64,000 bases of DNA, from contig NZ_CP095413.1 in the NCBI RefSeq assembly GCF_023016285.1, forward strand, positions 992,001 through 1,056,000, given 5' to 3'. Each line of letters opens with the position of its first letter. The first letter of the stretch is position 1. This stretch comes from Muricauda sp. SCSIO 64092. Its GTDB lineage: Bacteria > Bacteroidota > Bacteroidia > Flavobacteriales > Flavobacteriaceae. The notes beneath the pieces were generated by a model. It worked only from the letters and a program-made list of their open reading frames with translations, had not been told where the DNA came from and made no database searches. The position numbers and the translations under genes were made by a program. Below, in pieces: positions 12,364-45,387 of this stretch.

Positions 12364-12384
12364 TGTACATTTGAATTAGGTTAA

Positions 12385-12530: not shown

Positions 12531-12624
12531 TAAGATACTTCGATTTAATAATACAAACCTAAGAGCCTGCAGGCAGGCTTGCAAGATTAACCGCTAAACC
12601 ACGCAACTCCTCATAGCCAAGACC

Positions 12625-14240
12625 GTCAGACTGTCTCAAAAGTATTAAGAATTAGAGAGAAACATTATAATGAATTATATACGAGGAGCCTCCCGAGAAC
12701 AACTTACATTATATACCACATGTCTGGACGATATGGTTGATCGGGATAATACCGTAAGGTTTATTGATGTTTTTGTTGATAATCTCGATTTGGAGCAGTT
12801 AGGTTTTACAACTATTTCTAATCAAGGTAGACCAGCATATAATCCTAAAGATTTACTTAAGCTTTATATCTATGGCTATATGAATCGTATGCGTTCTTCC
12901 AGGGTATTGGAAAGGAATGTGTTCGTAATATAGAACTCATGTGGTTACTTAAAAACCTTAAACCAGATCATAATACGATCTCTAGGTTTAGACAATCTAA
13001 TCCCAAAGCCATAAAGCGTGTCTTTAGAGAAAGTGTTTCTATAGCTCAGGATTTTAATCTTATTGGAGCTATATTCATTGCTGGTGACTCTACAAAACTT
13101 AGAGCTCGGAACAGTAAAAAGAACAATTACAATAAAAAGAAAATACAACGCCATTTAGAGTATATAGACAATAAGCTAGATGAGTATAATGAGGCATTAG
13201 CTACCGCCGATGGCGATGAAAAAAAAGCCATCGAAAAAGCGATAAACAAACATCGGGTACATCAAGATAAATACCAACAAATACAAATGGTATTGGAACA
13301 GGATAAGAGCTGTGAAAACCCACAAATATCAACTTCTGATCCAGATAGCAGGCACCAAATTGTTCGGGGAACGATTACCGAAATAACCTATACAGCCCAA
13401 AGGACTGTAGACGATAAACATAAACTTCTTATTGATTACAAACTCACCAATGAGAATGATAAAAAGGCTATGGGTATGATGCTTAGAAGAGCAAAAAGTA
13501 TTTTAAGAACCAATACATTTACAGCACTTTATGACAAAGGCTATCATACCGGTAGTGAGTTCTATACTGCAAATTGCCTGGGAATAAAAACCCTTGTGGC
13601 CATACCAGGTATTGGCAGAAGTAGCCAAGCACCAGACCCAACTTATAATGTTGGGCACTTTATTTATAACAAAAAAGAGGACACCTATACTTGTCCGAAA
13701 AACAGAGAACTAATCTCTAATGGTAATTGGTATAAGGCTAGAAACTATAAGTTTAAGCAATATAAAACCAAGCCTTGTAAAACTTGCCCAGTAATGACAA
13801 GTTGTACAACTTCAAAGGTCAATGGGAAGATTGTTCAACGTAGCCAGTATAAATCGTACATAGATAGCAACAAAAAGCATGTAGCCAATAACCAAGGACT
13901 TTACAAAAAGCGACAAGCCATTGTAGAGCATCCCTTTGGTACGATAAAGAGGCAATGGGGTTTTGATTATATAATTACAAAGAAAGGAATTGCTTCAGCC
14001 AGTGCTGATTTTGGATTAACAGCTTTAGCATACAACCTTAAAAGAATGTTCAATCTAGGCTGGAAACCAAAAATATCCGTCTTAAAAGCATTTTTTAAAC
14101 ACCTTATTTGCTTTTATAATGACCAGAGTGTTTGTTTTAACGGAATCTCAGTTTTAGGTAATCCATTTGGAAAACCCTCTAACAAATTAATATATTTTTA
14201 AAATAAACAACTAATCACGGTAGTTTTGAGACAGACTGAC
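12625..14240 (+). mobile_element. IS1182-family insertion sequence
   Basis: 1616 bp between inverted repeats GTCAGACTGTCTCAAAAGTA (left) and, reverse-complemented on the right, GTCAGTCTGTCTCAAAACTA, 18 of 20 matching. No target duplication: removing the element joins AAGACC to GTTAGGC, restoring the end of a cassette site. It carries a frameshifted transposase gene, so it is probably inactive unless frameshifting occurs. Confidence 0.85.
12670..14201 (+). pseudogene. IS1182-family transposase, frameshifted
   Basis: Two adjacent frames form one protein: residues 1-87 (12670-12933) with the typical IS1182 N-terminus (NLDLEQLGF...GRPAYNPKDLLKLYIYGYMN) and a second frame continuing CVRNIELMWLLKNLKPDHNT through the DDE domain to 14201. 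The junction GTATTGGAAAGGAATG would read VLEKEC if one A were restored to the A run, so a single-base deletion best explains it; -1 programmed slippage is an alternative. The C-terminal part has the usual KTCPVMTSCTTS Cys cluster and RQAIVEHPFGTIKRQWGFDY. Confidence 0.85.
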
Positions 14241-15033: not shown

Positions 15034-15145
15034 ATTGGTGCTCCTTCTTGATAAATCCTTTTTTAAGAAAGCCCACTCCCAAACCCAAAGAATTATGGTT
15101 ATTTTTAGGAATAGCAAATTCCCTAACCCAGTTAAAAAAAGAAGA

Positions 15146-15736
15146 ATGGCAAAAAAGGCAGCACAAACGGCATCTTTTATGATGCGGTTTACACAAAAGA
15201 TTTATGATGAAAATGGGGAATCCGAAGTACAATGGCGTGGCAATGTTTCGCACGTTCAGGGTGGTGAAGACCTGAATTTCTCCGACTTTAAGGAAGCCGT
15301 GGCCTTTATACGGCAGCATCTGGCGGATTTGACCATGAATGCCACAAACGACCGAACATCGGAAGAGCAGGAAAACATTTTAACCAAAAGTTTTTCCCTT
15401 TTTAAGTCAGTGGCCACAACAGGGCCCAAAATACTAAAAGAGACCCTGAAAGATCCCCGAAAGCAAGTGGCCAATTTACAAGATCAATTGAGTGAATATG
15501 GGGAAGAATTGTGGGACAAAGTACCGATAGACCAATGGCGGAATGCTTCCAAGTCCGATTTTAAGACCATACATGAAACCTTGGTGGAATTGACCCATTC
15601 GGTTGCGGAACTGTCCAAAAAAGTGGATGCCTTGCAGGGGGCATCAGCAAAAAAAACAAGAACTTCCCCAAGGACGTCAAGGACCGCGAAAAAACCAGCG
15701 GCCAAAGCAAAAACCCCGCCCTCCAAAGCAAAATAA
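15146..15736 (+). CDS. Phasin-like / lipid-granule-associated protein
   Basis: 196 residues from the ATG at 15146 (MAKKAAQTASFMMRF), preferred over 15035 because the longer version begins in the terminator region. The middle is amphipathic helix (KSFSLFKSVATTGPKILKET, LQDQLSEYGEELWDKV and LVELTHSVAELSKKVDAL), and the C-terminus is a Lys/Ala/Pro/Ser/Thr tail like histone H1. Helical core plus Lys-rich tail resembles PhaF-type phasins that coat storage granules and contact DNA. First gene of the lipid block and 3 bp before the SARP-like regulator. Family membership was not proven. Confidence 0.5.
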   Translation: MAKKAAQTASFMMRFTQKIYDENGESEVQWRGNVSHVQGGEDLNFSDFKEAVAFIRQHLADLTMNATNDRTSEEQENILTKSFSLFKSVATTGPKILKETLKDPRKQVANLQDQLSEYGEELWDKVPIDQWRNASKSDFKTIHETLVELTHSVAELSKKVDALQGASAKKTRTSPRTSRTAKKPAAKAKTPPSKAK

Positions 15737-15739
15737 GCT

Positions 15740-16549
15740 GTGTCAAGCAAGGAACTGACAGCCCGGTTGGCGGACCTTAAAGCGTTTCAGCTCAAAGCAC
15801 CGATCAAATTTCAGACTTTGGGACGGTTCGCCCTATGGCGTGAAGACGATAAAGTCAATGCAAAGGATTGGGGAAGGGACAAAACCATCCAACTGATCCA
15901 ATACCTTATTTCCTATCGGAACAAACACGCCCTCCACAAAGAACAGATTATGGAGCATTTGTGGGAAGAAGGTGACGATCGCGATTTTAAAGTGGCGCTC
16001 CACGGCGTGAATAAAGTGTTGGAACCCCATCGGCCCGCAAGAACGGAAGCCATTTATGTAGAACGCCAGGGCGTGACCTATCAACTGAATCTGGATTTGG
16101 TTTGGATCGATGTTGATGCCATTGAAAAATACATCATCATCGGCAATAGCGCGCTGGGCAACCTTCCCGAAATTGCAAAAGAGGCGTACCAAAATGCCAT
16201 TGTACTCTATCAGGGGATGTATCTGCCCAATCGGATTTTTGAAGATTGGTCCTCCGAGGAACGCGAAAAAACACAGGTTCTGATTCTTGGCGCATTGGTG
16301 AACCTTGCCGAACTATTGATAACCACCAACCCCATGGAAAGTATTCGCCTTGCGCAACAGGCGATTGCCATTGACAAAACCTGGGAGGACGCCTACCGCA
16401 TTCAAATGTCGGCCTATATTGCCAAGGGCAATCGGCCGCAAGCCCTAAAAACCTATCAAAAATGTGCCGATATCCTTGATGAGGAATATGGGATACCCCC
16501 GCTCCCGGCCACAAGGGCATTGTTAAAGGAAATCGAAGCCATTGCTTGA
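15740..16549 (+). CDS. SARP-like transcriptional activator (winged HTH + BTAD)
   Basis: 269 residues from a GTG 4 bp after the previous stop. Residues ~20-115 form an OmpR-type winged HTH (IKFQTLGRFALW, WGRDKTIQLIQYLISYRNKH, EQIMEHLWEE, AIYVERQGVTYQLN). Residues ~120-269 form a bacterial transcriptional activator domain of TPR-like helices (NAIVLYQGMYLPNRIFEDW, ERE, LAELLITTNPMESIRLA, DAYRIQMSAYIAKGNRPQAL, EEYGIPPLPATRALLKEI). SARPs bind direct repeats spaced 11 bp and recruit RNA polymerase; two such repeat pairs precede the next two genes. SARPs are best known from actinobacteria, so this one is unusual in a flavobacterium. Confidence 0.8.
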   Translation: MSSKELTARLADLKAFQLKAPIKFQTLGRFALWREDDKVNAKDWGRDKTIQLIQYLISYRNKHALHKEQIMEHLWEEGDDRDFKVALHGVNKVLEPHRPARTEAIYVERQGVTYQLNLDLVWIDVDAIEKYIIIGNSALGNLPEIAKEAYQNAIVLYQGMYLPNRIFEDWSSEEREKTQVLILGALVNLAELLITTNPMESIRLAQQAIAIDKTWEDAYRIQMSAYIAKGNRPQALKTYQKCADILDEEYGIPPLPATRALLKEIEAIA

Positions 16550-16630
16550 TGAAATGCGGTTATATCAACCCACTGTAAATAAAAGGGTTACCTCACCTTT
16601 ATAGAAAAAAGCCCAACCCCTACCCTGGTT

Positions 16631-16665
16631 TGCAACTCATTTGTAACTACCTGGTTTTATGTTTG
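16631..16665 (+). promoter_or_regulatory. Promoter with 11-bp-phased heptamers upstream of 16701
   Basis: TGCAACT (16631-16637), 4 bases, TGTAACT (16642-16648), 9 bases, TATGTTTG (16658-16665; matches the TAnnTTTG Bacteroidota -7 box). The same words at identical spacing lie at 16976-17010. The geometry fits activation by a SARP-type regulator such as the product of 15740. Transcription would begin about 30 bases before the ATG at 16701. Confidence 0.7.
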
Positions 16666-16700
16666 TCCCATAAATTTAGAACGCAAAAAAATATACAGCT

Positions 16701-16952
16701 ATGGCAACTAACAAAACAAAGCAAACGCTAGTCGAAAAAACCGCGAACAATGTTCTGTGTTTGGCCACCAAAGCGAACGATTTTGCCTTGGGCACCACGG
16801 AAAAAGTGTTTGATACCTCTTTTAAAGTGGCAGAAAAGTCCTTGAACATCACTTCAACAGTGATCAAAAAAGGATTGGACATCACCGCAACACAACAAGA
16901 TCTTGTTTTTGATGTGTTGAATGGCATAAAGAAAAAAATCAGTAAGGACTAG
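16701..16952 (+). CDS. Small phasin-like protein, copy 1
   Basis: 83 residues, entirely helical and without signal peptide: LATKANDFALGTTEKVFDTS, then KVAEKSLNITSTVIKKGLDI, ending TATQQDLVFDVLNGIKKKI. The amphipathic pattern and size resemble short granule-coat proteins. It is paralogous to 17913-18203, sharing the NDxAL..TE, and QQDLVFD(V/I)LN segments. It has its own SARP-type promoter. Inferred to coat lipid inclusions; not a recognised Pfam phasin. Confidence 0.65.
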   Translation: MATNKTKQTLVEKTANNVLCLATKANDFALGTTEKVFDTSFKVAEKSLNITSTVIKKGLDITATQQDLVFDVLNGIKKKISKD

Positions 16953-16975
16953 GGCAATCTGCCCAAAAGCAAGAG

Positions 16976-17010
16976 TGCAACTCAGCTGTAACTTATGGCA
17001 TTTAGATTTG
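16976..17010 (+). promoter_or_regulatory. Promoter with 11-bp-phased heptamers upstream of 17052
   Basis: TGCAACT (16976-16982), CAGC, TGTAACT (16987-16993), 9 bases, TAGATTTG (17003-17010). Identical heptamers and spacing to 16631-16665. It supports the start at 17052 for the following gene, because a start at 16995 would place the promoter inside the coding region. Confidence 0.7.
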
Positions 17011-17051
17011 CACCATTAATAGATCAAAAAGAATACTTAAAAAAAAATATC

Positions 17052-17858
17052 ATGGCGACAACGACTGTAAAAAGAAAAAAAGAGCAAGCAAAAAGCCTCA
17101 ATAGTGCATTGATCAACGCCACTGTGGCCACTATCAATACCACTTTGGAGAATGGCGAAAAATGGCAAAAATTGACCAAGAAATTGGTGAAGAAATCCGA
17201 GCCAGTTCGAAGAAAGCAAATGGATATGTTTTTTGATACGGCCAGCACCGTTAAAAAACAGGTAAAATCCGGTAAAGAAAGAACATTGGACCTTGTGGGT
17301 TATGATGAAGGAACTGCGGAACGCGCTTATGAGTATGTTTCCAAAACACCTGTTGGAAAAATGGTCTTGAAGGTAACTGAAAACATTAAAGAGAAAGTTA
17401 CTGAAAACCCAACACTCAAAAAAGTTGAAAAAACGGCCAAAGACATTAAAAAAAAGGGTACCGCTAAATTCAACGATGTTAAGGAAGATGTTTTGGGGCA
17501 GGTTAAAAAAGTGATCCATAAAGGGGAGGAATTTGTTGATGAAGCGTTAAAACCCTCCAAAGGCAAGACGACCAAAGCCAAAAAAACGGTGAAAGCCAAG
17601 GCCCAAACCGAAACGGTCAAAAAAGAAGAAGCGGTAGCAAAAATGGAAGTTGAAGTTTCTGGGAAAGACGATTTAAAGTTGATCAAGGGAATTGGCCCCA
17701 AATTGGAGCGAATCTTTAACGAGAACGGTATCGAAACCTTTATGGAATTGGCAGAGGCCAGCGATGAAAAAATCCAGGGAATTCTTGAAAAGGCCGGTCC
17801 CATCTTTAAGAACCTTAATTTTTCCGATTGGAAAAAGGAAGCCAAAACCAGAGGCTAA
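17052..17858 (+). CDS. Phasin-like protein with C-terminal helix-hairpin-helix domain
   Basis: 268 residues from MATTTVKRKKEQAKSLNSAL. Residues 1-75 are helical with a phasin-like look (WQKLTKKLVKKSEPVRRKQM...TASTVKKQVKSGKERTLDLV). A long Lys-rich linker (EKTAKDIKKKGTAKFNDVKE, then KPSKGKTTKAKKTVKAKAQT) follows. The last 55 residues contain LKLIKGIGPKLERIFNENGI and ETFMELAEAS, a helix-hairpin-helix fold that usually contacts DNA without base specificity. This layout (granule-binding helix, basic tail, DNA-binding module) could tether lipid granules to the nucleoid, as PhaF/PhaM do for polyhydroxyalkanoate. Function is inferred. Confidence 0.6.
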   Translation: MATTTVKRKKEQAKSLNSALINATVATINTTLENGEKWQKLTKKLVKKSEPVRRKQMDMFFDTASTVKKQVKSGKERTLDLVGYDEGTAERAYEYVSKTPVGKMVLKVTENIKEKVTENPTLKKVEKTAKDIKKKGTAKFNDVKEDVLGQVKKVIHKGEEFVDEALKPSKGKTTKAKKTVKAKAQTETVKKEEAVAKMEVEVSGKDDLKLIKGIGPKLERIFNENGIETFMELAEASDEKIQGILEKAGPIFKNLNFSDWKKEAKTRG

Positions 17859-17912
17859 AGGGCAACAAAGGAAATTGGCCCAAAGCCCTATTGTTAATCT
17901 TTAAATCAAAGC

Positions 17913-18203
17913 ATGATGAAAAATAAAAGCACTAAGAAAAACGCTAAAGGACTAATCGGCAAAGCTATGGCCAAAACAAAGGCAATGGCGTTAAAGGGAA
18001 ATGATACAGCCCTTGCACGAACTGAAGAATTGGTTACCACCTCCTTGGAAATAACGGCCCAATGGCAAAATGTTGCGGATAAGGCCCTAAAAGGTGGCTT
18101 AAAATTGGCGGCTAACCAACAGGATTTGGTCTTTGACATTTTAAACGAGGTCAAGAACGATTTAAAAATTGGTAAAAAGAAATTCAACAAGCTGGTAGCA
18201 TAG
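17913..18203 (+). CDS. Small phasin-like protein, copy 2
   Basis: 96 residues with a basic N-terminus (MMKNKSTKKNAKGLIGKAMA) then helical sequence homologous to the 83-residue protein: KGNDTALARTEELVTTSLEI, LKGGLKLAANQQDLVFDILN and EVKNDLKIGKKKFNKLVA. About one third of the aligned positions match by eye, so these are paralogues. Followed by a strong terminator (18231-18270). It lies directly downstream of the helix-hairpin-helix protein, and no separate heptamer promoter is seen. Confidence 0.65.
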   Translation: MMKNKSTKKNAKGLIGKAMAKTKAMALKGNDTALARTEELVTTSLEITAQWQNVADKALKGGLKLAANQQDLVFDILNEVKNDLKIGKKKFNKLVA

Positions 18204-18230
18204 TAGCAGTAATTAATCGAATTTGTATGG

Positions 18231-18270
18231 AAAACCAGTTTGTCCCTTCCAGGGACCAGCTGGTTTTTTA
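18231..18270 (+). terminator. Rho-independent terminator after phasin-like genes
   Basis: AAAACCAG...GTCCC-TTCCA-GGGAC...CTGGTTTTTTA: a two-part hairpin (8 bp outer, 5 bp inner) with a T-run. It separates the phasin-like genes from the acyltransferase operon. Confidence 0.8.
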
Positions 18271-18376
18271 GTATGCATGCATAGTAAGGGGTAAATTCGT
18301 TATTTTAGCAAGAGGTACGACAACTTCTTTTTAAAGTGTGTTTTCGCTTAACGAAGTTGGGTTTTGAAGTTTTGAA

Positions 18377-19039
18377 TTGGCAAGTAAACAGAAAATAGCA
18401 GAAGAAGATCTGATCGATTTTTATATGGATGCCGTTGTGAAATACGAAGGCAAACCAGCTTCGATAGAAGATTTGGCAAGTGACTATGATTTTCACCCCG
18501 ATGGATTCTATGAATACTACGCGGGTTTTGAAGATTTGGACAGGTCCATATTCAAGATTCTAATCGATACGTCCATTGCCACGCTGGCCGAAAGTCCTGA
18601 TTTTGTGTCATTTGACAAAAAGGACAAATTATTGAGCCTTTTTTACACGCTTTTCGAAAATTTTACGTTGAATCGGGATTTTGTTTTACTTACCATAAAA
18701 AGTTACGGTCTCAGTTTTGATGCCCTGTCACTTTTTAAAGAATTGAAGGAAAGTTTTATCGCCTTTATCGATTCGTTGCAGTTGGAGACCTTCAGGATAA
18801 GTGAGAGTTTGGAATCCATTCAAAAAAGATCGATCAGGGAAGGCGTTTGGATACAGTTTTTGTTGACGGTCAAGTTTTGGATGTCCGATGATTCCCATCA
18901 ATGCCATAAAACGGATATTTTCATTGAAAAGTCCATCAATACGGGCATGGAATTATTGAACACCAAATCATTGCAAAATATCATTGACCTGGGTAAATTT
19001 TTATATGCTGAAAAAATAAAGTCGAAAGATCCCTCATGA
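18377..19039 (+). CDS. TetR-like transcriptional regulator
   Basis: 220 residues from a TTG at 18377. Residues ~10-55 match the TetR HTH register (IAEEDLIDFYMDAVVKYEGK, then ASIEDLASDYDFHPDGFYEY and YAGFEDLDRSIFKILIDTSI), although the HTH is divergent (YDFHPDGFYEYY in place of the usual GVSKGTLYxHF). The C-terminus is helical, as in acyl-CoA-sensing TetR proteins. Its stop overlaps the next gene start, so it is co-transcribed with the kinase and acyltransferase genes and probably regulates them. Confidence 0.6.
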   Translation: MASKQKIAEEDLIDFYMDAVVKYEGKPASIEDLASDYDFHPDGFYEYYAGFEDLDRSIFKILIDTSIATLAESPDFVSFDKKDKLLSLFYTLFENFTLNRDFVLLTIKSYGLSFDALSLFKELKESFIAFIDSLQLETFRISESLESIQKRSIREGVWIQFLLTVKFWMSDDSHQCHKTDIFIEKSINTGMELLNTKSLQNIIDLGKFLYAEKIKSKDPS

Positions 19040-20379
19040 AGACTTCAAAGAGAATTCCACTTTCAAAGCTACAGCGCACCTCAAAATTGATGCAAACAGG
19101 TGCCAAAGTTGGCGTGAATTATTTGAAGTACTATGGGGACAAAATGGTCAATTCGGAGGAAGAGGCAAAAGCACGATTGGATGAAAACAATGCCAATGAT
19201 ATTTACGACAGTTTAAAAACCCTGAAGGGCAGTGCCCTAAAGATGGCGCAAATGATGAGCATGGAAAAAAGCATCATGCCAAAAGCCTTCGTAGAAAAGT
19301 TTTCACTCGCCCAATTCTCCGTACCCCCACTTTCAGCACCTCTAGTGCTAAAAACATTCAAACGGTCCTTTGGAAAATTTCCCCATCAACTATTTGACCA
19401 ATTCAACAATAAGGCCATGAACGCCGCCAGTATCGGTCAAGTGCATCTGGCCGAAAAAAACGGACAGCAATTCGCGGTAAAAATCCAATATCCCGGAGTG
19501 GCGCAGAGCATTCGATCGGATCTGGCCATTGTAAAGCCGGTAGCCATGAAAATGTTCAACATCTCGGGTGAGCATTCGGAACAGTATTTTAAAGAGGTGG
19601 AAAACAAACTTGTGGAGGAAACCGATTATGAACTGGAACTCGCCCAAAGTCAGGAAATCAAACTATGGTGTGGTCATCTTCCAAATTTGAGGTTTCCGAC
19701 CTATTATCCGGAATATTCCTCTCCAGAAATTATTACCATGGATTGGATGCATGGCGCACACCTTTCCGAATTTGCCCAAACCAATACCGACCAAGAGGCA
19801 GCCAATTTAGTGGGACAGACGCTGTGGGACTTTTATATGTACCAAATGCACGTTTTGCATAAGGTCCATGCCGACCCACATCCCGGCAATTTTCTCGTTT
19901 CCAATGCACATGAGGTCATCGCACTGGATTTTGGTTGTATGAAGGCCATCCCGGAAGACTTTTATAATCCTTATTTTGAGCTGTTCAAATGGGAGGTCAT
20001 CAATGATCCGGATAGTTTTGAAAAAAACCTTTTTGCCCTTGAGGTATTGAAGGAAGAGGACAGCGAAACGGAACGTGCTTTTTTCACCAAACTATTCTTT
20101 GAGGTATTGGAATGGTTTACCAAACCTTTTCAAGTGGAAACCTTTGATTTCTCCGACCGGGAATTTTTTGATAAAATCTCGGCCTTCGGGGAACAGTATC
20201 TGAAAAAGTCCACCCTAATGAACATGAATGCCGATAGGGGATCAAAACATATCATTTACATGAACAGGACTTTTTTTGGACTGTACAGTTTGATGTTCGA
20301 CCTGAAGGCCAAAGACATAAAAACACACAATTACACCCAGTTTGTTCAAAACACTGACCAAGAACTGCTGGTAAAATAA
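19036..20379 (+). CDS. ABC1/AarF (UbiB) family atypical kinase
   Basis: 447 residues. It shows the family marks: KMAQMMSM in the position of KxGQ, then NAASIGQVHLAEKNGQQFAV with the Ala-rich loop and Lys, ELAQSQEIKLWCGHLPNL, and HKVHADPHPGNFLVSNAHEV followed by ALDFGCMK (catalytic HxDxxPxN and DFG). UbiB-like kinases work in isoprenoid-quinone lipid handling and membrane lipid homeostasis. Embedded in the neutral-lipid operon, starting 4 bp before the end of the regulator gene, so a lipid-related role is likely; the substrate is unknown. Confidence 0.85.
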   Translation: MKTSKRIPLSKLQRTSKLMQTGAKVGVNYLKYYGDKMVNSEEEAKARLDENNANDIYDSLKTLKGSALKMAQMMSMEKSIMPKAFVEKFSLAQFSVPPLSAPLVLKTFKRSFGKFPHQLFDQFNNKAMNAASIGQVHLAEKNGQQFAVKIQYPGVAQSIRSDLAIVKPVAMKMFNISGEHSEQYFKEVENKLVEETDYELELAQSQEIKLWCGHLPNLRFPTYYPEYSSPEIITMDWMHGAHLSEFAQTNTDQEAANLVGQTLWDFYMYQMHVLHKVHADPHPGNFLVSNAHEVIALDFGCMKAIPEDFYNPYFELFKWEVINDPDSFEKNLFALEVLKEEDSETERAFFTKLFFEVLEWFTKPFQVETFDFSDREFFDKISAFGEQYLKKSTLMNMNADRGSKHIIYMNRTFFGLYSLMFDLKAKDIKTHNYTQFVQNTDQELLVK

Positions 20380-20386
20380 AGAACAC

Positions 20387-22228
20387 ATGGCATCGAAAAT
20401 AGATCTGAAGGATATTGCCCAAGAAGTATTTGACGGGAATTTTAAACAAATTTCGGGTTATGAAGCGGCTTTTCTTTATGCGGAATCGCCCACAAGCCCA
20501 ATGCATATTGCCACTTTGGTCATCGTTGAAGGTTCCATGAATTTTAAGGATTTCAAAAGAATAGTCGCCTCCAAACTCCATTTGATCCCAAAATTCAGAC
20601 AACGCCTCCTGCACGTACCCATGGATTTGGATTACCCCTATTGGGTCGATGATCCCAATTTTGAGCTGGACCTACATCTTAACCGAATGAAACTGGCCGA
20701 TCCCTCCAACTGGGAATCCTTGCGAAGAACAACCTCCCGCATCTTTAGTGCACCCCTGGATTTAAGGCGGCCACTTTGGTCCATCCACTTTATAGAAGGG
20801 ATAGATGAAATCCCCCAAATTCCCAAAGGCTCTGTGGCCATAGTCAGCAAAGTGCACCATGTCATGATCGACGGTAGCTCCGGAGTGGGCCTAATGGGTA
20901 TTCTATTTGACAAAGACGACAAGGTCAGGACCATTGACAAATCGGAAATCAAAAAGTACGATCCCAACCCCTTACCGGATGATATCAGTTTACTACTGAA
21001 AAGTGGGTACGGCTTTTTAAAAAATCCGCTCAGAATTCCAAAAACCATAGCCGATACCGCAATAGCCTTTGTGAAAAACAAGGCTTCAAAAACCTTAAGC
21101 ATCCAAAAGGAATTTGCCACGGCACGTTATCCCGTACCGATTACCATATTTAATGGAAACGTTTCCCCCAGAAGAACATGGGGAACGGCAATCCTTTCAT
21201 TTGACCGTGTCAATAGCTTGCGAAAACTGGTCGGTGTCAGTATCAACGATCTTATTTTGGCCGTCTGCGCCGGGGCGATACGACGTTATCTTCAAGAGAA
21301 GGAAAAACTGCCCTTGCAACCTTTGGTCGCCAATGTCCCCATCTCCATACGTGGTGAAAATGACGATTCACAAAACAATCAAATAGCCAATATGCTGGTT
21401 CAATTGGGCACGCATATTGAAGATCCTTTGGAGCGTTTGGAATACATTCAGGAACAGACCATGCTGGGCAAGGCAAGACATAAGACCATGGGTGCCAAAA
21501 CCCTGGCAAAAATAGCGGATGCCGTACCTTTCGGATTGGCCAACCTTGCCGCCAGGATCTACGGCAAATACAATATCAAGGACTTGCATCGCCCCCCATT
21601 CAATGTAACCATTACCAATGTACCTGGACCAACAAAACTGCTCTACCTGAATGGGCACAAGGTGGTTTCCATTTTTGGTTTGACCCCAGTGGCAAATGGT
21701 TTTGGTCTGATCATTGCCGCCTTCAGTTACAATGGTAAAATCAGTATTACCACCACTTCGGACAAGCGGACGATGCCGGATTGTTATGTTTTCTCAAGGT
21801 ACATCCGCGAATCCGCCAATGAACTGGAAGAATTGATTTTAGGGAGCCAGAAGAAAAAGTCCCCGGCGGGGAAATCCGCAAAACAAAAAAGTGAAAGCAC
21901 CGCTTTTTTCAATGCCTTAAGGCGGTATTTGAAAAAGGAAACCGGACTTATCAAAAAATACCAGGGCGTCTACCACGTTCATGTAGATATGGGTGCCACC
22001 AGCGAATGTTGGGAAATTGACCTCACCAAAGAAGCGGCTACCGTTAAAAAAACAACGACACTGGACCCGAAAACCGTTTTGGAAATTGAGGATGCCAACC
22101 TATATGCGCTGTACAAGAAAAAACTGTTGTTTGATGAACTAAAAATTCAACAACGCTTAAAATTATCCGGTACCGTGGCCAACAAACGTAAGTTGACGAA
22201 TCTTATTAAAGCCTTTTTAACCCGATAA
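20387..22228 (+). CDS. Wax ester synthase/diacylglycerol acyltransferase with SCP2-like tail
   Basis: 613 residues. The WS/DGAT catalytic motif HHVMIDG is at residues 157-163, with the family's N-terminal SPTSPMHIATLVIV, RQRLLHVPMDLDYPYWVDDP, WSIHFIEG and SINDLILAVCAGAIRRYL (ND motif). Residues ~470-500 are a linker, and the last ~110 (FNALRRYLKKETGLIKKYQG...SGTVANKRKLTNLIKAFL) read like an SCP2 sterol-carrier domain, a lipid-binding add-on not normally part of WS/DGAT. It would transfer acyl-CoA to diacylglycerol or fatty alcohol. It starts 8 bp after the kinase gene. Confidence 0.9.
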   Translation: MASKIDLKDIAQEVFDGNFKQISGYEAAFLYAESPTSPMHIATLVIVEGSMNFKDFKRIVASKLHLIPKFRQRLLHVPMDLDYPYWVDDPNFELDLHLNRMKLADPSNWESLRRTTSRIFSAPLDLRRPLWSIHFIEGIDEIPQIPKGSVAIVSKVHHVMIDGSSGVGLMGILFDKDDKVRTIDKSEIKKYDPNPLPDDISLLLKSGYGFLKNPLRIPKTIADTAIAFVKNKASKTLSIQKEFATARYPVPITIFNGNVSPRRTWGTAILSFDRVNSLRKLVGVSINDLILAVCAGAIRRYLQEKEKLPLQPLVANVPISIRGENDDSQNNQIANMLVQLGTHIEDPLERLEYIQEQTMLGKARHKTMGAKTLAKIADAVPFGLANLAARIYGKYNIKDLHRPPFNVTITNVPGPTKLLYLNGHKVVSIFGLTPVANGFGLIIAAFSYNGKISITTTSDKRTMPDCYVFSRYIRESANELEELILGSQKKKSPAGKSAKQKSESTAFFNALRRYLKKETGLIKKYQGVYHVHVDMGATSECWEIDLTKEAATVKKTTTLDPKTVLEIEDANLYALYKKKLLFDELKIQQRLKLSGTVANKRKLTNLIKAFLTR

Positions 22229-22229
22229 A

Positions 22230-23162
22230 ATGTATTACAAGACCAATACATTTACCGCCAAGGACGGTGAAATTATCTGCTACTATAAGTGGGAAACCCT
22301 TAATGCCAACAAGAATCGCGGCATTGTGCAGATTGCCCATGGTATTGGGGAGCATGCAGGGCGTTATGACAGCATAGCCCACCGTTTGCAGCAAGAAGGG
22401 TTCACCGTTTATGCCAACGATCATCGGGCACATGGGAAAACGGCGGAAATAAAGCGGCTTTTTGGTTTTTATGATGGCAAAAATTACTTTGAGGATGTGG
22501 TGGAAGACATGCATTCCCTAACCGGGTTGATGCGCAACGAACACCCTGAAGCTAAATTTATTTTGTTCGGCCATAGCATGGGGTCCCTTTTGAGTCGAAA
22601 ATACGTGCTCCGTTATGGCGATGAAATTGATGCCTTGATTTTATCGGGCACGGCAAATTTTATCAAGGGATTGGGACATTTTGGGTTGGCAAGCACAAAA
22701 GTGGTAAGCGCTATCCGGGGGCGGGAACGCGGCAATGAAACCCTGAGAAGCTTCTTCTTTGATGAATTCAATAAAAAATTCAAGCCCAATCGAACAAAAT
22801 TGGATTGGATAAGTAGCGACGAAGCCGCCGTGGATGCCTTTGAGGCCGATCCCTATCGCATTGAGAACTTTTCCGTTGGGGTTTTTGCCGATATTCTAAT
22901 CAATTCCAGGGAATTGAATAAAAAAAGTGCTTTTGTAAATACCCCGGACAAATTACCCATTTTAATCTTTTCGGGAGATGAAGATCCCGTGGGTGAAATG
23001 GGAAAAGGGGTAAGCAAAGTGGCCAAGAACTATGAAAAGAATGGCAACGAAACCCTTACGTTCAACCTCTACAAAGGAGGCAGGCACGAAATGCTCAACG
23101 AAAAGAACAGTCAAGAAGTGGAGGAAGATATGATAACATGGCTTAACACCTACATCCCCTAG
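22230..23162 (+). CDS. Monoacylglycerol lipase-type alpha/beta hydrolase
   Basis: 310 residues, Hydrolase_4 fold: IAHGIGEHAGRYDSIAHRL, GFTVYANDHRAHGKT, nucleophile Ser116 in FGHSMGSLLS, Asp in FSGDEDPVG and His in GGRHEMLNE. No signal peptide, so cytoplasmic. Position just 2 bp after the acyltransferase suggests it hydrolyses stored glycerides or releases acyl chains. Substrate not proven; a wax ester or PHB-type substrate is also possible. Confidence 0.9.
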   Translation: MYYKTNTFTAKDGEIICYYKWETLNANKNRGIVQIAHGIGEHAGRYDSIAHRLQQEGFTVYANDHRAHGKTAEIKRLFGFYDGKNYFEDVVEDMHSLTGLMRNEHPEAKFILFGHSMGSLLSRKYVLRYGDEIDALILSGTANFIKGLGHFGLASTKVVSAIRGRERGNETLRSFFFDEFNKKFKPNRTKLDWISSDEAAVDAFEADPYRIENFSVGVFADILINSRELNKKSAFVNTPDKLPILIFSGDEDPVGEMGKGVSKVAKNYEKNGNETLTFNLYKGGRHEMLNEKNSQEVEEDMITWLNTYIP

Positions 23163-23166
23163 AACC

Positions 23167-24324
23167 ATGGAAGATAAATTGCATTTATATGAGACTTTTA
23201 TCAAATTCACGGCCTATTTAGGGGTACGCGGCGGGCTTCCCATTACGAAAGTCAAGAAAATCCTAACGGGAAGTTTTAAAATTCACGCGTATTCGGATGA
23301 ACTGATGCCCATTGTCAAAGAAGTGACCTCGGACGATAAGGACCTGGATTTTCTGTTTGATGAATGTATTCGAATGTGTGATGAATTGGGCCCAAGTCGT
23401 GAATACTTTACACTGATTACCTTACTGGAGAACATCACCAATGAAATAACCCGAAAAGGCAATCCGGAAGCCGATGAACTATCCAAAAAGGTCTTGAGCA
23501 GATTCAGGGAAGAAATAACACTGATCAATCAGAAGATCCCCAAACCTCCCCTATTCAATATGCTTTTGGAAAGTAGGTCCCTGGTTGAATGGGCGTCCAT
23601 TTATGCCATTTACCCTTTTATTCCCAAACGCATTAAAGGAGAGGGCAAGCCCGTACTATTGATTCCCCCCTATTTGGGTGATGATTATTCAACGTCCTTT
23701 GTCCGTCGGTATCTGACCTCCTTAGGTTTTAAGACCTATAAATGGGACCAGGGCTTCAATTTGGTCAAATCGCACTACATCCCACGCCTTGAGGAAAAGC
23801 TGGATGATATCTATCGGATTCACGGTGAAAAAGTAAGTATCGTAGGTTGGAGCGGAGGGGGCCTTTTTGCCAAGATCATTGCCAATCGCCATCCCAAGCA
23901 GGTACAACAGATTGTAACCATTGGTTCACCCGTATGGGGGGTTATGGACATGAAAACCCCGGTCAATGGCATTTTGGAGTTTTTTAGGGGAAAATCCCTA
24001 AAGGAAAGGAACAAAAGGTTTATCGAAGAACTTGAACCCATACCCAATGTGCCGATTACGTGTATTTACACAAAAACAGATGGCCTATTGCCCTGGAAAC
24101 ATTGCATGGAAGCCGAAAGCTATCGGGATGACATAAAGAATATTGAAGTGTACGGCAGCCATTCGGGCCTGGGTGCCAACGTCAGTGTTCTGTTGATAAC
24201 GGCCAATGCACTGAGTGCCAATATTCAAGGGAAAACGATCAAAGAGACCACCTTGGAAGTAGAACGCATCCTTTATCCTTTTTACTGGAACAAGAAAAAA
24301 AGAAGTTTGTTTTTTTTAAATTAG
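23167..24324 (+). CDS. PhaC-like alpha/beta hydrolase
   Basis: 385 residues. The N-terminal 150 are helical with no homology that I can name; the C-terminal part is an alpha/beta hydrolase: LLIPPYLGDDYSTSFVRRYL, nucleophile Ser229 in IVGWSGGGLFAKIIA, Asp in TKTDGLLPW and His in GSHSGLGANV. The catalytic Cys of PHA synthase is replaced by Ser, so it is more likely an esterase or lipase than a polymerase. Next in the lipid operon, 5 bp after the lipase gene; probable role in remodelling storage lipids or phospholipids. Confidence 0.7.
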   Translation: MEDKLHLYETFIKFTAYLGVRGGLPITKVKKILTGSFKIHAYSDELMPIVKEVTSDDKDLDFLFDECIRMCDELGPSREYFTLITLLENITNEITRKGNPEADELSKKVLSRFREEITLINQKIPKPPLFNMLLESRSLVEWASIYAIYPFIPKRIKGEGKPVLLIPPYLGDDYSTSFVRRYLTSLGFKTYKWDQGFNLVKSHYIPRLEEKLDDIYRIHGEKVSIVGWSGGGLFAKIIANRHPKQVQQIVTIGSPVWGVMDMKTPVNGILEFFRGKSLKERNKRFIEELEPIPNVPITCIYTKTDGLLPWKHCMEAESYRDDIKNIEVYGSHSGLGANVSVLLITANALSANIQGKTIKETTLEVERILYPFYWNKKKRSLFFLN

Positions 24325-24345
24325 AAGTTCAACCCCTAAGTTGAA

Positions 24346-27300
24346 ATGCAGGACATCATTAATAGCGAAAAATTTCAGGAGTCTTTAAAGCAAGCAGCTA
24401 AAGACCACAAGCTAGCTATTGAAGATGTTCAAAAAGAAGCAGAAAAATACATTAAGGAACTCTATGCCCAGCAACACCCTGCGGCAAGACTGGTTTCCGT
24501 ACGGGGTTTTAACTATATTCTTTCCAGGGCCTACAGTGAAAAAATAGATGTTGACCCCAAGGGCATCAAAAAGCTGATGAAATTGATGCGGAAGCATTCC
24601 GTCGCTTTTATCATGACCCACAAGACCTATCTGGATACCTTGGTCCTCATCTCCACCTTGGCACGTTATGGGATGCCCGTACCCTATTCCTTTGGGGGGA
24701 TAAACCTGGCCTTCCCCGGATTGAAGCAATTGGGGAAAAGTGCCGGTATAGTTTTTATCCGTAGAAGTTTTAAGGACAACCCGATCTATAAAATTGCGCT
24801 TAGGCACTACATTTCCACTATTATAGACAAGGGGGACCACCTTACCTGGAATATTGAAGGCACCCGTTCCCGGACGGGTAAAATCCTGCATCCCCAAATG
24901 GGTATCCTAAAGTACATCATGGATGCTGAAAAGCAGAGTTCCAGGGATGTTAAGTATGTCCCCGTTTCCATAGCATACGACCTTATTCCGGACGTCAAGG
25001 AAATGACGGAGCAAGCAAAAGGGGCCAAAAAAAAGTCGGAAAACCTTTCCGAAGGCATCAAATACGTTCGAAGCCTGGGAAGCAATTATGGTAGGGCCGC
25101 CATCCGTTTTGGTAATCCGGTCGAAATCGATGAAACCCATAATGTCGCGGTTCCCCAATTTGAGGATGATACCTATAAGCGTAAGGACACTTTGCCCTTT
25201 TTCGCCTTCGATCTTATCAATCAAATGTCCAGGATTACCCCGGTTTCCACGGTTTCCCTGATTTGCAATGTGCTCCTTAATGACTTTGCACTGACCAAAA
25301 AGGAAATCGAATTCAAGGTGAAAAAGCTGATGGAATACATTGGCAAAAAGCAAGAGGATTCGCTTATGGATAGGGGCAATCCCATTGCCGTGAGTGTACA
25401 AAAAGCTTTAAATCTGCTTCAAGCGGGCCATATCATTCGCAAAAGCAGGGCTGGGCAAAAAGCGCAGTTCAGTGTGATTTCCACGGAGTACCTGTCGGCC
25501 ACCTATTATGCCAATATGGTTGCGGGCCATCTGTACCACTCCGCATTTGTGGAGATGGCCCTGGTAAAAGTGAAAGACGATACGTCCCCAGATAGAATAG
25601 TTCATTTTTGGGAGGAAATCATGAACCTTCGCAATCTTTTCAAATTTGAATTTTTCTATACCAACAAGGCGAAATTCAGTGATGAAATTGAAGCAGAGCT
25701 CAATCGGTTCGATAAAAATTGGCGGGAAATACTGAATGACCCCAAAAGGGATGTTTCCGAAATCCTGAAAAAACAAGATCTATTCATCTCCAGGGCGTTG
25801 CTCCTTTCCTATATTGAAGCGAACAAGGTGGTATGCCATACGTTGAGCCATTGGGACGAGAACGACATATTCACGGAAGAAGAGTTCCTGGAGCTTTGCA
25901 TTTTTAAGGGAAAAGAGCTCCATTGGCATAGTCGAATCACGCGATTGGGAAGTATTTCAAAACCCTTTTTAAGCAATGCCTATCGCTTTGCCGAAAATGC
26001 CGGACTTGGCATAACCGACCAAAAGACAAACCACAAGGGACTCGAAGCTTGGATGCACCAACTTGAGGACTTGACGGCACGATTGACATACCTGAAGGAA
26101 ATCGAGGTGGAACCCAGCACCAAAAGCCTGGGATTGTTAGCACGCCAAAATAGTTTGGTGCCCGAGGCGACAATACCCAAATCGAGAAAAAAAATAGAAG
26201 AAGCAGAAGAAGGACCGCACATAGCCGCCTATTTTGATCTGGATCGGACCATAATCAATGACTTTTCCGCAAAGCGATTTATGCGTACCCGGTTATTTAG
26301 TGGGGAAACAACGGCCAAGGAATACATTACCCAATTTATGACGGCCCTGGTCTTTTCATTCGGCAATCGCGATTTTGAAGTGCTGACCAAAATTGCCGCC
26401 TTGGGGGTCAAAGGGATTCCTGAAAAGGTTTTTGCCGATCTGGGCCAGGAGGTATTTGAGGAATACCTGTTACCGACCATCTACCCGGAATCCCGTGAAT
26501 TGATCAAAAAACATTTCGAAAAAGGACATCGGGTGGTCATTATCTCGGCCGCTACCCCCTACCAAACCAATCCCGTTGCCAGGGAATTGGGGATTTCCGA
26601 TGTGTATTGCACCCAGATGGAATTGCAAAACGGAAAATTTACGGGGCGCATTGCAGAGATGCGTTGGGGTGAAGGCAAAGCAAGGGCCGCACGAATCTTT
26701 GCCAGGGAGAATACTATTGACCTCTCCAAAAGCTATTTTTATTCGGATAGTTTTGATGATTATCCCTTATTCAAAATTGTGGGCAAACCCGTGGCCACAA
26801 ACCCGGATAATGCGCTTTCCCAGGTAGCCTTTGAGAACGACTGGCCCATTCTTCGATTTAAGGAGCCCAGTGAAAAACCGGTGGTCAATGGCTTACGTAC
26901 GGGCCTGGCGGCTGCGAGCATTTATCCGTCTGCGGTAAGGGGCGCGGTAAAGGGATTGGTCACCCTATCAAGACAGGAGGCGGCCAATACCACCTTTTCA
27001 AGTATTGGTGACTTTGGTACACGCCTGGCCGGATTGCAAATATCCGTGAGGGGCAAACGTAACCTGACCGATTTTCGCCCTGCAGTATTTTGTTTTAACC
27101 ACCAGAGCGCAGCCGATTTCTTCATTATCATGAAACTCTTACGCAGGGATTTTACCGGGGTTGCCAAAAAAGAACTGGAAAGAACACCTATTGGCCCTAT
27201 ATTCAAAGCGTTGGGGGCCATCTATATTGACCGAAGCAACAAAACAAAGGCCATAGAGGCCATGAAACCGGCGGTGGAGGCATTGAAAAATGGCGTTTCG

Positions 27301-27579
27301 GTGGCTATTGCCCCCGAGGGAACACGGAGTGGTACCGCAGAATTGGGACCTTTTAAAAAAGGGGCCTTTCATCTGGCCATGCAAGCTGGGGTTCCCATTG
27401 TTCCCATTGTCATCAAAAATGCGTACCAAGCGGTGAAAAAAGGTTCCATGATGTTGCGTCCCACACATATTGAGGTAGTGGTATTGGATCCCGTGGAAAC
27501 GGCACTTTGGAAACGGAAAAACTTGAATCAATACATTGAAGAGGTACGTGAACTGTTCGTTGCGGAGCTGAATCACTAA
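24346..27579 (+). CDS. GPAT-HAD phosphatase-LPAAT trifunctional fusion
   Basis: 1077 residues with three enzyme modules. Residues ~60-420: PlsB-like acyltransferase with HKTYLD (HX4D, His92/Asp97), FSFGGINLAFPG, IRRSF and EGTRSRTGK (Glu171). Residues ~625-860: HAD phosphatase of the SerB/PAP type with FDLDRTI (Asp631/Asp633) and a downstream YSDSFDDYP. Residues ~890-1077: PlsC-like acyltransferase with NHQSAAD (His919/Asp924) and APEGTRSG (Glu991). The modules correspond to consecutive steps: glycerol-3-phosphate to lysophosphatidate, phosphatidate, diacylglycerol. In Mycobacterium these are separate proteins, PlsB2 and the HAD-containing PlsC, next to a Tgs-type acyltransferase. Each activity still needs testing. 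Confidence 0.88.
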   Translation: MQDIINSEKFQESLKQAAKDHKLAIEDVQKEAEKYIKELYAQQHPAARLVSVRGFNYILSRAYSEKIDVDPKGIKKLMKLMRKHSVAFIMTHKTYLDTLVLISTLARYGMPVPYSFGGINLAFPGLKQLGKSAGIVFIRRSFKDNPIYKIALRHYISTIIDKGDHLTWNIEGTRSRTGKILHPQMGILKYIMDAEKQSSRDVKYVPVSIAYDLIPDVKEMTEQAKGAKKKSENLSEGIKYVRSLGSNYGRAAIRFGNPVEIDETHNVAVPQFEDDTYKRKDTLPFFAFDLINQMSRITPVSTVSLICNVLLNDFALTKKEIEFKVKKLMEYIGKKQEDSLMDRGNPIAVSVQKALNLLQAGHIIRKSRAGQKAQFSVISTEYLSATYYANMVAGHLYHSAFVEMALVKVKDDTSPDRIVHFWEEIMNLRNLFKFEFFYTNKAKFSDEIEAELNRFDKNWREILNDPKRDVSEILKKQDLFISRALLLSYIEANKVVCHTLSHWDENDIFTEEEFLELCIFKGKELHWHSRITRLGSISKPFLSNAYRFAENAGLGITDQKTNHKGLEAWMHQLEDLTARLTYLKEIEVEPSTKSLGLLARQNSLVPEATIPKSRKKIEEAEEGPHIAAYFDLDRTIINDFSAKRFMRTRLFSGETTAKEYITQFMTALVFSFGNRDFEVLTKIAALGVKGIPEKVFADLGQEVFEEYLLPTIYPESRELIKKHFEKGHRVVIISAATPYQTNPVARELGISDVYCTQMELQNGKFTGRIAEMRWGEGKARAARIFARENTIDLSKSYFYSDSFDDYPLFKIVGKPVATNPDNALSQVAFENDWPILRFKEPSEKPVVNGLRTGLAAASIYPSAVRGAVKGLVTLSRQEAANTTFSSIGDFGTRLAGLQISVRGKRNLTDFRPAVFCFNHQSAADFFIIMKLLRRDFTGVAKKELERTPIGPIFKALGAIYIDRSNKTKAIEAMKPAVEALKNGVSVAIAPEGTRSGTAELGPFKKGAFHLAMQAGVPIVPIVIKNAYQAVKKGSMMLRPTHIEVVVLDPVETALWKRKNLNQYIEEVRELFVAELNH

Positions 27580-27624
27580 TTGGGTTTCCAAAATTACCGA
27601 CCCAAACCAAAAAAAATCGAACAT

Positions 27625-28626
27625 ATGCCATTGAACATAGGAATATTGGGAGGAGGTTCGTGGGGAACCACCGTTGCCTCACTAACCGCAAGAAATGCAA
27701 ATCCCACCGTTTGGGCCCGAAATGAGGAAACGGTGCATGAAATCAATGCCCATCGGACCAATTCAAAATACCTGCCGGGAGCACTTTTGAACAAAAACCT
27801 AAAAGCCTCGGTTTCCATAGAAGAAACCGTAAAAAATGCGGATTTACTGGTTATGGGAATTCCCTCGCAAAACTTTAGGGAAGTCCTGGAAACCGCAAAA
27901 CCCTTTGTTCGCCCGTGGATTCCCATTGTGAGTTTGGCCAAGGGCCTTGAAATGGGCACAAAAAAAAGGATGACGGAAGTGGTGGCTGAAATACTGCCCG
28001 GACATCCCGTAGGAGTATTGACCGGTCCCAACTTGGCAAAGGAAATCCATAACGGTCAGGCAGCGGCAGCGGTAATTGCCATGGTGGATGAAATCATCGC
28101 CAAAAAATTGCAAGGGGTATTCAACTCGGGGCTCTTTCGTGTGTATACCAATAACGATGTGATCGGCTGTGAATTGGGGGGTGCCCTAAAAAACATTATG
28201 GCCATCGCTACGGGAATGGGCGACGGGGCTAATGCTGGCGATAACACCCGGGCGGCACTGATTACCAGGGGACTCTCCGAATTAACCCGTTTGGGCACCG
28301 CCATGGGCGGAAGAAGAAGAACCTTTGCCGGGTTGGCGGGCATGGGAGACCTTGTGGCCACCTGTAGCAGTGCCAAAAGTAGAAATCGCCATGTTGGTTT
28401 TCAATTGGGAAAAGGGAAAAAGCTCAAGGAGATTATCGAAGAAATGTCCGAGGTTGCCGAAGGGGTCAAAACGGCCAAAGTGGTCATGGAACTTGCCAGG
28501 GAATACAAAGTGGACATGCCCATCTCCGAAGAGGTCTACAAAGTATTGTATGAGGGGAATACCGTAGCGGATGCCTTTCGTGGCTTATTAAAATTGGAGA
28601 GTGGTTCTGAGGCGGAACCCGGGTAA
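27625..28626 (+). CDS. gpsA: NAD(P)-dependent glycerol-3-phosphate dehydrogenase
   Basis: 333 residues from the ATG at 27625 (MPLNIGILGGGSWGTTVASL). The N-terminal Rossmann motif GGGSWGT, the VVSLAKGLE, VLTGPNLAKEI and CELGGALKNIMAIATGMGDG segments, with the catalytic Lys in the latter, are those of GpsA. It reduces dihydroxyacetone phosphate to glycerol-3-phosphate, the first substrate for the fusion acyltransferase 46 bp upstream. Last gene of the lipid block. Whether it is the sole gpsA of the genome cannot be known here. Confidence 0.93.
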   Translation: MPLNIGILGGGSWGTTVASLTARNANPTVWARNEETVHEINAHRTNSKYLPGALLNKNLKASVSIEETVKNADLLVMGIPSQNFREVLETAKPFVRPWIPIVSLAKGLEMGTKKRMTEVVAEILPGHPVGVLTGPNLAKEIHNGQAAAAVIAMVDEIIAKKLQGVFNSGLFRVYTNNDVIGCELGGALKNIMAIATGMGDGANAGDNTRAALITRGLSELTRLGTAMGGRRRTFAGLAGMGDLVATCSSAKSRNRHVGFQLGKGKKLKEIIEEMSEVAEGVKTAKVVMELAREYKVDMPISEEVYKVLYEGNTVADAFRGLLKLESGSEAEPG

Positions 28627-28642
28627 CCCCCATCCAAAGCAT

Positions 28643-30232: not shown

Positions 30233-30403
30233 AATAATTGCTTTATGACAAAAATTAATTTTTACAAAAATACAATAAATTATTGTTTTACAAAATATTA
30301 ATTCGATTAAAAGGAAAGAAATTTACATGAAACTATAATTTTATCGAAAAACCTACAGTTTTAGCCTTTGTATATTTACACCAAACAGCAATTTAATTGC
30401 ACT

Positions 30404-30613
30404 ATGGATAAAATAAATTACAATCGAATAAAGGCTGTATTGGCTGAAAAAAACGTTTCATCTAAAGATTTAGCCAAACATCTAGATAAAACAGAATCCA
30501 CTGTTTCAAGATGGTGTACTAATGATGTTCAGCCTGCGGTAGAAATATTTCATCAAATTGCCAAGTTTCTTGATGTAGATATTAGAGAGCTTTTTGTCTC
30601 AACGAAAAATTAG
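30404..30613 (+). CDS. XRE-family regulator upstream of R-M gene
   Basis: 69 residues from MDKINYNRIKAVLAEKNVSS (ATG 30404; an upstream start at 30368 is less likely). One HTH_3 domain: LAKHLDKTESTVSRWCTNDV, QPAVEIFHQIAKFLDVDIRE. It lies 15 bp before the restriction-modification gene, the position of a controller (C) protein that delays nuclease expression. Probably autoregulated from the AT-rich 170-bp divergent spacer. Confidence 0.75.
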   Translation: MDKINYNRIKAVLAEKNVSSKDLAKHLDKTESTVSRWCTNDVQPAVEIFHQIAKFLDVDIRELFVSTKN

Positions 30614-44322: not shown

Positions 44323-44336
44323 TAGTATTTACAATA

Positions 44337-45284: not shown

Positions 45285-45387
45285 GTATAAGCAATAGTGG
45301 TTTAAGCGATAAAGCGAAAGTATAAACATGAAACAAAGGTCAGTGAGTAGAAATCCGCTACTACCCATACACAAGACCGCTAGCATC
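45277..45387. repeat. Cassette site n (last of the array)
   Basis: TCAACAATGAGTATAAGCAA, TAG ... CATACACAAGACCGCTAGCA. Ends the array; after it the genes are chromosomal-looking. Confidence 0.55.

Follow-up and report, generated by a model that had tools for sequence, protein, structure and literature searches.

The window analysed here is a stretch of 64,000 nucleotides of Muricauda sp. SCSIO 64092 (positions 992001-1056000 of its single 5.69-Mb contig, NZ_CP095413.1). Twelve consecutive plus-strand genes at window positions 15146-28626 form one compact block, which we consider likely to be a dedicated operon for triacylglycerol (TAG) storage, equipped with droplet-coat proteins and lipases. 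An earlier note on this DNA had described such a block, and all the genes that it named are present there as open reading frames. They encode, in order, a first coat-like protein, a BTAD-domain regulator, three phasin-like proteins, a TetR-fold protein, an ABC1/UbiB-type protein, a wax ester synthase/acyl-CoA:diacylglycerol acyltransferase (WS/DGAT), two alpha/beta hydrolases (ABH1 and ABH2), a fusion of three glycerolipid enzymes, and the glycerol-3-phosphate dehydrogenase GpsA. The intergenic distances are -4 to 21 bp from the TetR-fold gene through the fusion gene, 3 bp between the genes for coat-like protein 1 and the BTAD regulator, and 45 bp between the fusion gene and gpsA, with the gpsA start taken at ATG 27625; the gaps between the coat-like genes and the TetR-fold gene measure 54-173 bp. 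The genes would presumably share a single transcript, and no match to the strict form of the Bacteroidetes-type promoter pattern was found before 15146.

The fusion enzyme (24346-27579) combines in one 1077-aa chain a glycerol-3-phosphate acyltransferase (GPAT, residues about 1-590), a HAD-IB phosphatase domain (627-823) and a lysophosphatidate acyltransferase (LPAAT, about 879-1070). The first part scores 181.7 bits against GPAT_C (cut-off 25), and its top GPAT model is the PlsB2-type PRK03355 (458.7 bits, under the equivalog cut-off of 721). The HAD part exceeds the cut-off of TIGR01490 (151.4 bits against 98.3), and the LPAAT part that of the AGPAT model TIGR00530 (126.1 bits against 102.95). 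In an alignment of the window protein with 42 homologues of at least 1000 aa, the motifs that we take to be catalytic are invariant in all 43 sequences, namely HxxxxD and EGTRSR in GPAT, DxDxT, Ser, Lys and Asp-x3-Asp in HAD, and NHxxxxD and EGTRS in LPAAT. The first linker is loose, with a mean identity to the window protein of 28% as compared to 71-78% for the domains across the same sequences. The HAD domain is the most likely candidate for the phosphatase step from phosphatidate to diacylglycerol, a step that the earlier note left undiscussed. For gpsA (27625-28626), the ATG at 27625 is more likely the start than the TTG at 27580; the protein scores 491.3 bits against PRK12439 (cut-off 436), and a second genomic GpsA, of a different type, scores 179.9 bits against the same model.

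The earlier note likened this part of the block to a mycobacterial neighbourhood (Rv2482c-Rv2485c), and a comparison with plasmid genes supports a likeness to the actinobacterial plsB-plsC-tgs operon, with the first two genes fused here. On a plasmid of Mycobacterium paragordonae the two halves of the fusion are separate neighbouring genes (35.7% and 28.9% identity) that lie near a WS/DGAT gene and an opposite-strand alpha/beta hydrolase gene; a plasmid of Nocardia farcinica carries them next to each other in different frames.

The WS/DGAT of the block (20387-22228, 613 aa), the only one in the genome, scores 386.6 bits against TIGR02946 (cut-off 309.95), and its C-terminus carries an SCP2 domain (30.8 bits, cut-off 21.3) that had gone unmentioned before. 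HHxxxDG, which we take to be the active-site motif, is present in the window protein and in 50/50 homologues of at least 590 aa. Conservation is 0.80 in the catalytic core, 0.58 in SCP2 and 0.53 in the linker. The protein is a predicted acyl-CoA:diacylglycerol or wax ester synthase.

Two alpha/beta hydrolases follow. ABH1 (22230-23162) scores 167.2 bits against Hydrolase_4 (cut-off 27) and is related to the solved monoglyceride lipase 6eic (E 1.6e-20), other alpha/beta hydrolases being closer (5o7g, E 1e-39). Its nucleophile motif GHSMG is kept in 37 of the 43 homologues, and the other six, all from Saprospiraceae, have GHSLG or GKSLG. By its relation to solved enzymes and its GxSxG nucleophile, ABH1 is a putative monoglyceride-lipase-like protein. 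ABH2 (23167-24324) gives sub-threshold matches only to family models, and its GWSGG nucleophile motif is retained in 46/46 homologues of at least 370 aa. A shorter, extra ABH2-like hydrolase gene is located downstream of gpsA in three Saprospiraceae loci (L042, 17181-17897; L043, 17502-18221; L052, 17775-18491).

The block contains four coat-like proteins of 196, 83, 268 and 96 aa, of which the last three form one sequence cluster. Coat-like protein 1 (15146-15736) consists of a conserved N-terminal domain with many invariant residues and of no recognised kind, a long helical part and, in part of its family, a basic tail; the N-terminus has no match in plasmids. A weak ApoA-II match is found in 8 of the 14 family members (E up to 0.1, best 0.0037). 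Aligned members of the window type have the basic tail, and the six of the other type lack it. The protein of L007, 98% identical to that of the window, has 13 K/R in its last 40 residues; other members have as few as six, with isoelectric points down to 6.2. The small phasin-like proteins of 83 aa (16701-16952) and 96 aa (17913-18203) belong to one family, and the former has no Pfam or NCBIfam match (E up to 0.1). The 268-aa protein (17052-17858, frame readable from 16995) contains K/A-rich repeats, and most of its aligned relatives carry a helix-hairpin-helix (HHH); in the window protein the C-terminal HHH_5 match reaches 24.7 bits (cut-off 27), and HHH_5 is found in 9/13 aligned members (E up to 0.1, best 2.4e-07). 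The Pfam phasin models do not match the proteins of the window (E up to 0.1); among aligned members, Phasin is found in 5/13 (best E 0.0071) and Phasin_2 in 1/16 (E 0.038). The PhaH model NF045508 gives 28.1 bits in the window, as compared to its cut-off of 250. Three or four phasin-like proteins had been expected here: four coat-like proteins are indeed encoded, and they stay below the curated phasin cut-offs, so that their features recall DNA-binding droplet or granule proteins such as MLDS by resemblance, not by membership.

The earlier note also counted two regulators in the block. The BTAD-domain protein (15740-16549, start GTG) is well recognised (PF03704, 56.9 bits, cut-off 22.1) and probably regulates the gene set. 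The TetR-fold protein (18377-19039, start TTG) has a single recognised domain, the C-terminal TetR_C_23 (113.2 bits, cut-off 29.1); TetR_N does not match (E up to 0.1). The 32-residue region of its helix-turn-helix (HTH) has a net charge of -8, and values of -4 to -10 are found in 27/27 homologues, as compared to +3, -2, 0 and 0 in only four ordinary TetR controls (one from 1.3 Mb of loci, one from stretches of the genome G164 and two from solved structures). Conservation is lower in the HTH part (0.61) than in the C-terminal part (0.75) of the 28 sequences. Since it lacks a TetR_N match and its HTH region is acidic, the protein may not bind DNA. Its gene overlaps by 4 bp that of the ABC1/UbiB-type atypical kinase or ATPase (19036-20379), which has conserved blocks and scores 181.8 bits against PF03109 (cut-off 22.9) and 140.7 bits against the UbiB model TIGR01982, below its cut-off of 487.55. 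This overlap, together with the acidic and less conserved HTH region, suggests that the TetR-fold protein may work with the ABC1 ATPase in handling lipid, in an arrangement analogous to that of COQ9 and COQ8. COQ9 is a TetR-fold lipid binder, and the shared feature is an ABC1 ATPase gene beside a gene for a TetR fold without a recognisable HTH domain. However, the COQ9 model TIGR02396 gives 13.7 bits here (cut-off 74.55), and the solved structures that the profile matches include no COQ9 chain. COQ8 itself has been assigned roles in lipid extraction and an ATPase activity, in the available text of two papers (PMC11495197, PMC7615680).

That the TetR-fold protein is an ordinary operon repressor is the less probable reading of the two, though one to be taken seriously, as TetR_C_23 lies far above its cut-off, the gene is inside the block and the weak solved-structure matches of the profile include two TetR regulators, one of them covered from the N-terminus on (3on4, residues 9-135, E 0.21); the missing TetR_N match and the acidic, diverged HTH region speak against it. 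The TetR-ABC1 pair has no match in G164, a member of the genus without WS/DGAT, within 40 stretches that cover 0.77 of about 3.6 Mb; these stretches give HHH, PlsC-like and ordinary GpsA matches only.

The earlier note had proposed a search of flavobacterial genomes for the conserved block, and the block was found. Scanning genome contigs with six peptide patterns from the window WS/DGAT yielded 52 related loci, a set biased to close kin because the patterns came from that very protein. Eleven loci are titled Saprospiraceae and 41 Flavobacteriaceae or genera of that family. All 12 genes occur in the order of the window in 24/52 loci, so the block is not a chance assembly; four further loci of the window type (L008, L015, L053 and L056) are interrupted by a contig or locus end. 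In another 12 loci the order is WS/DGAT-ABH1-ABH2-fusion-GpsA followed by coat-like protein 1, with BTAD next in 11 of them and further coat-like genes in most. The remaining 12 loci have no coat-like protein 1 in view and comprise the 11 Saprospiraceae loci and one short Polaribacter contig. Several of the 11 Saprospiraceae loci are short; three of the 11 contain the whole five-gene core, and in L044, where both sides extend for 9 kb, WS/DGAT and ABH2 are the only block genes present. No other family around the block is conserved comparably, the next two clusters each being found in 11 loci and one of them probably being an antisense frame. For seven block proteins, pairwise distances between loci correlate at 0.83-0.96 (595-1081 pairs).

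The distribution of the genes was analysed in one set of 199 genomes of the family, representing 198 genera. The WS/DGAT profile PF03007 matches in six of them, and the same six have a fusion match over at least 856 of the 1077 residues (one ends at a contig edge); among the matches listed, other family genomes give only partial domain matches to the fusion. With no full-length match in 193 of the 199 genomes, the fusion is not the general housekeeping GPAT; eight PF01553 matches are found in the own genome, two of them from the fusion. Both coat-like protein 1 and the small phasin-like family match in exactly these six genomes and nowhere else in the sample. A Fisher test that ignores linkage between the genes and relatedness among the genomes gives 1e-11 for 6/6 versus 0/193, a value that for this reason does not count independent events. 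With the own genome included, WS/DGAT is present in 7 of 11 genomes of the genus and 21 of 395 genomes of the phylum.

The block behaves as a cassette within a variable region, as judged from its sharp homology edges, GC contrast and adjacent transposase genes. Window positions 15058-28639 align to L007 (3705-17251) and L018 (2231-15796) at 94.7-95.7% DNA identity, and with these near relatives the homology starts at 15058-15077 and ends at 28634-28639. Just outside these edges neither L007 nor L018 matches the window; L018 does so again at 44293-45589, about 15.7 kb further on, and the two loci share 13.8 kb with each other, ending at the gpsA stop. GC content is 44.2% in the block, and 36.8% and 32.8% in the adjacent 5 kb. 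Two transposase genes are located just upstream (11377-14201), one of the IS110 type and one of the DDE type, the latter apparently split into two frames (12670-12933 and 12939-14201). The cassette edges have no terminal repeats, the longest word common to the 300-bp ends being 10 bp. Further downstream, 30629-34555 encodes a 1308-aa single-chain restriction-modification enzyme with N6 DNA methylase, HSDR_N-like and type I specificity domains, preceded by a small gene (30368-30613) that by eye is HTH-like.

The window WS/DGAT is 19.9-32.4% identical to 40 listed plasmid homologues, with the proteobacterial proteins as close as the actinobacterial ones. A quick WS/DGAT tree of 53 rows included 23 of the 52 block loci and plasmid-borne outgroups only; L053, L093 and L119 entered as split pieces and L092 gave no row. 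The other Bacteroidota were represented by 16 rows (L094-L109), with the weak partial matches L110-L112, second copies and G334 left out; in one of these loci, L095 of genome G530, the WS/DGAT is a 595-aa open frame with a longer N-terminus than in the other rows. The 25 block-type rows form one group and the 16 other Bacteroidota rows a separate one, each with 99 SH-aLRT, so that two distant WS/DGAT types appear to exist in the phylum. Proteobacterial and actinobacterial plasmid proteins fall between them in a tree that is unrooted and in which long branches meet. A recent transfer from Actinobacteria was not adopted in view of the low identity, the meeting of long branches that leaves the placement unsure, and the poor outgroup sampling.

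Part of this system is already known, namely the Bacteroidota WS/DGAT-SCP2 proteins and the actinobacterial pathway as separate genes. The three-enzyme fusion, the co-occurring coat-like proteins, the cassette-like edges and the 'TetR' with an acidic HTH seem to be new. A 2023 paper, the only one on WS/DGAT in Flavobacteriia among the matches listed in the open-access literature, describes in its available text WS/DGATs of Bacteroidota that carry SCP2 and have an 'AGPAT/hydrolase' as neighbour, and leaves the role of the AGPAT-HAD proteins open (PMC10351704). Its genes resemble ours in protein type (613 +/- 15 aa, SCP2 in two of four), genera and the AGPAT/hydrolase neighbour, whereas its available text makes no mention of the GPAT part, the coat-like proteins, the ABC1/TetR pair or the 12-gene order. 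In Aquimarina, also of the Flavobacteriaceae, TAG-class ions were annotated by mass spectrometry, and the available text does not claim storage (PMC9323603). Neutral-lipid droplets in a flavobacterium appear in no title or abstract among the matches listed, which is weak evidence of absence from a search of open-access literature with subscription journals mostly outside it.

Among the closest described arrangements is the atf9-plsB-plsC operon of Rhodococcus jostii RHA1, in which GPAT, HAD-LPAAT and WS/DGAT genes lie side by side and, in the available text, the HAD part of PlsC is proposed as a phosphatidate phosphatase and left open (PMC4850399). In contrast, the block has GPAT and HAD-LPAAT in one chain, a WS/DGAT that carries SCP2, and, in addition, GpsA, two hydrolases, ABC1, the TetR-fold and BTAD proteins and four coat-like proteins. 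MLDS of R. jostii is, in the available text, a droplet protein with a lysine-rich DNA-binding C-terminus encoded in one operon with its regulator MLDSR (PMC5504291); the regulator here is of the BTAD type, and the likeness is one of description, without sequence comparison. On a plasmid of Caballeronia (L126), the gene immediately before WS/DGAT is of a phasin family, which is a precedent for pairing a coat gene with WS/DGAT; however, GPAT, HAD-LPAAT and GpsA are absent among the 18 annotated features of that stretch, whose gene table is incomplete. The same plasmid has an acyl-CoA reductase gene about 7 kb from WS/DGAT.

Taken as a gene set, the block is best read as serving neutral-lipid synthesis and storage, as the earlier note had proposed. 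GpsA would convert dihydroxyacetone phosphate to glycerol-3-phosphate, which the fusion would acylate twice, by GPAT and then LPAAT; the middle HAD domain most likely strips the phosphate to give diacylglycerol, and WS/DGAT would attach the third acyl chain, perhaps aided by its own SCP2 lipid-transfer domain. The four coat-like proteins would cover the oil droplet and may, through basic tails and the HHH domain, anchor it to the nucleoid, and the two hydrolases would free the fatty acids again. ABC1 and the TetR-fold protein probably handle lipid at the membrane or droplet surface. A TAG storage operon is favoured by the scores above curated cut-offs, the invariant catalytic residues, the co-occurrence and the correlated distances, as well as by the second GpsA of a different type, the lack of a PhaC_N match in the genome and the likeness of ABH1 to monoglyceride lipases.

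Several observations weigh against a TAG storage operon. The phasin, apolipoprotein and HHH models all remain below cut-off for the coat-like proteins of the window, and among solved structures coat-like protein 1 best matches a designed coiled coil (E 0.00025), followed by apolipoprotein A-I (0.013) and then other coiled coils; such matches are common for helical proteins. In the 12 loci with coat-like genes behind the core, the stretch has no TetR or ABC1 match, and the Saprospiraceae loci show the core with no coat-like genes in view, so the coat-like proteins are not required everywhere. The block lacks an acyl-CoA synthetase gene. PlsY (PF02660) was not found in the genome, rated 99.99% complete, and a Bacteroides control also has no match. 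In its available text, the literature reports no activity, droplet or lipid for any member of the block.

Among other products, wax esters or a mixture of wax esters and TAG are unlikely but come closest; here WS/DGAT would esterify a fatty alcohol supplied by a reductase encoded elsewhere. WS/DGATs are often bifunctional, and eight NAD_binding_4 matches are found in the genome, the best of which also matches the thioester reductase domain TIGR01746 at 79.7 bits (cut-off 213.35). Wax synthase activity was seen with one rhodococcal Atf, according to the available text (PMC4850399). However, the glycerolipid branch is complete in the block and a reductase gene is missing from it, all 14 controls also give NAD_binding_4 matches, and the two of the eight proteins that were scanned best fit sugar epimerase/dehydratase models, all below cut-off.

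It is quite improbable that WS/DGAT uses another acceptor, such as a hopanoid, a carotenoid alcohol or a glycolipid, and that the block remodels membranes instead of storing oil. SCP2 is a sterol/lipid carrier type, and its lower conservation relative to the core would suit different lipids, but this reaction would leave the GpsA-GPAT-LPAAT-HAD set without a role, and coat-like proteins and lipases suit storage better. PhaF and PhaH, phasins of polyhydroxyalkanoate (PHA) granules, are likewise helical with K/A-rich tails or HHH, and the weak phasin matches recall them; even so, PHA granules as the site of the coat-like proteins were rejected as hardly credible, because the genome has no PhaC_N match (Caulobacter, among the controls, does match), and the phasin cut-offs are not reached and the coat-like families are confined to the six WS/DGAT genomes among the 199.

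More tentatively, and with rather low confidence, the TAG storage operon may amount to a self-contained, exchangeable droplet cassette, with a whole glycerolipid pathway in which three enzymes share one chain, a coat and a nucleoid tether of its own, and a COQ8/COQ9-like pair of ABC1 and an acidic TetR-fold lipid binder, which would lift lipid out of the membrane and pass it to WS/DGAT-SCP2.

If the TAG reading is true, some Flavobacteriaceae, including many named marine genera, can store oil, which would bear on the bacterial retention of algal-bloom carbon. The block would then be a compact TAG pathway with a natural GPAT-phosphatase-LPAAT fusion, and the TetR-fold protein beside its ABC1 ATPase may have turned into a lipid carrier.

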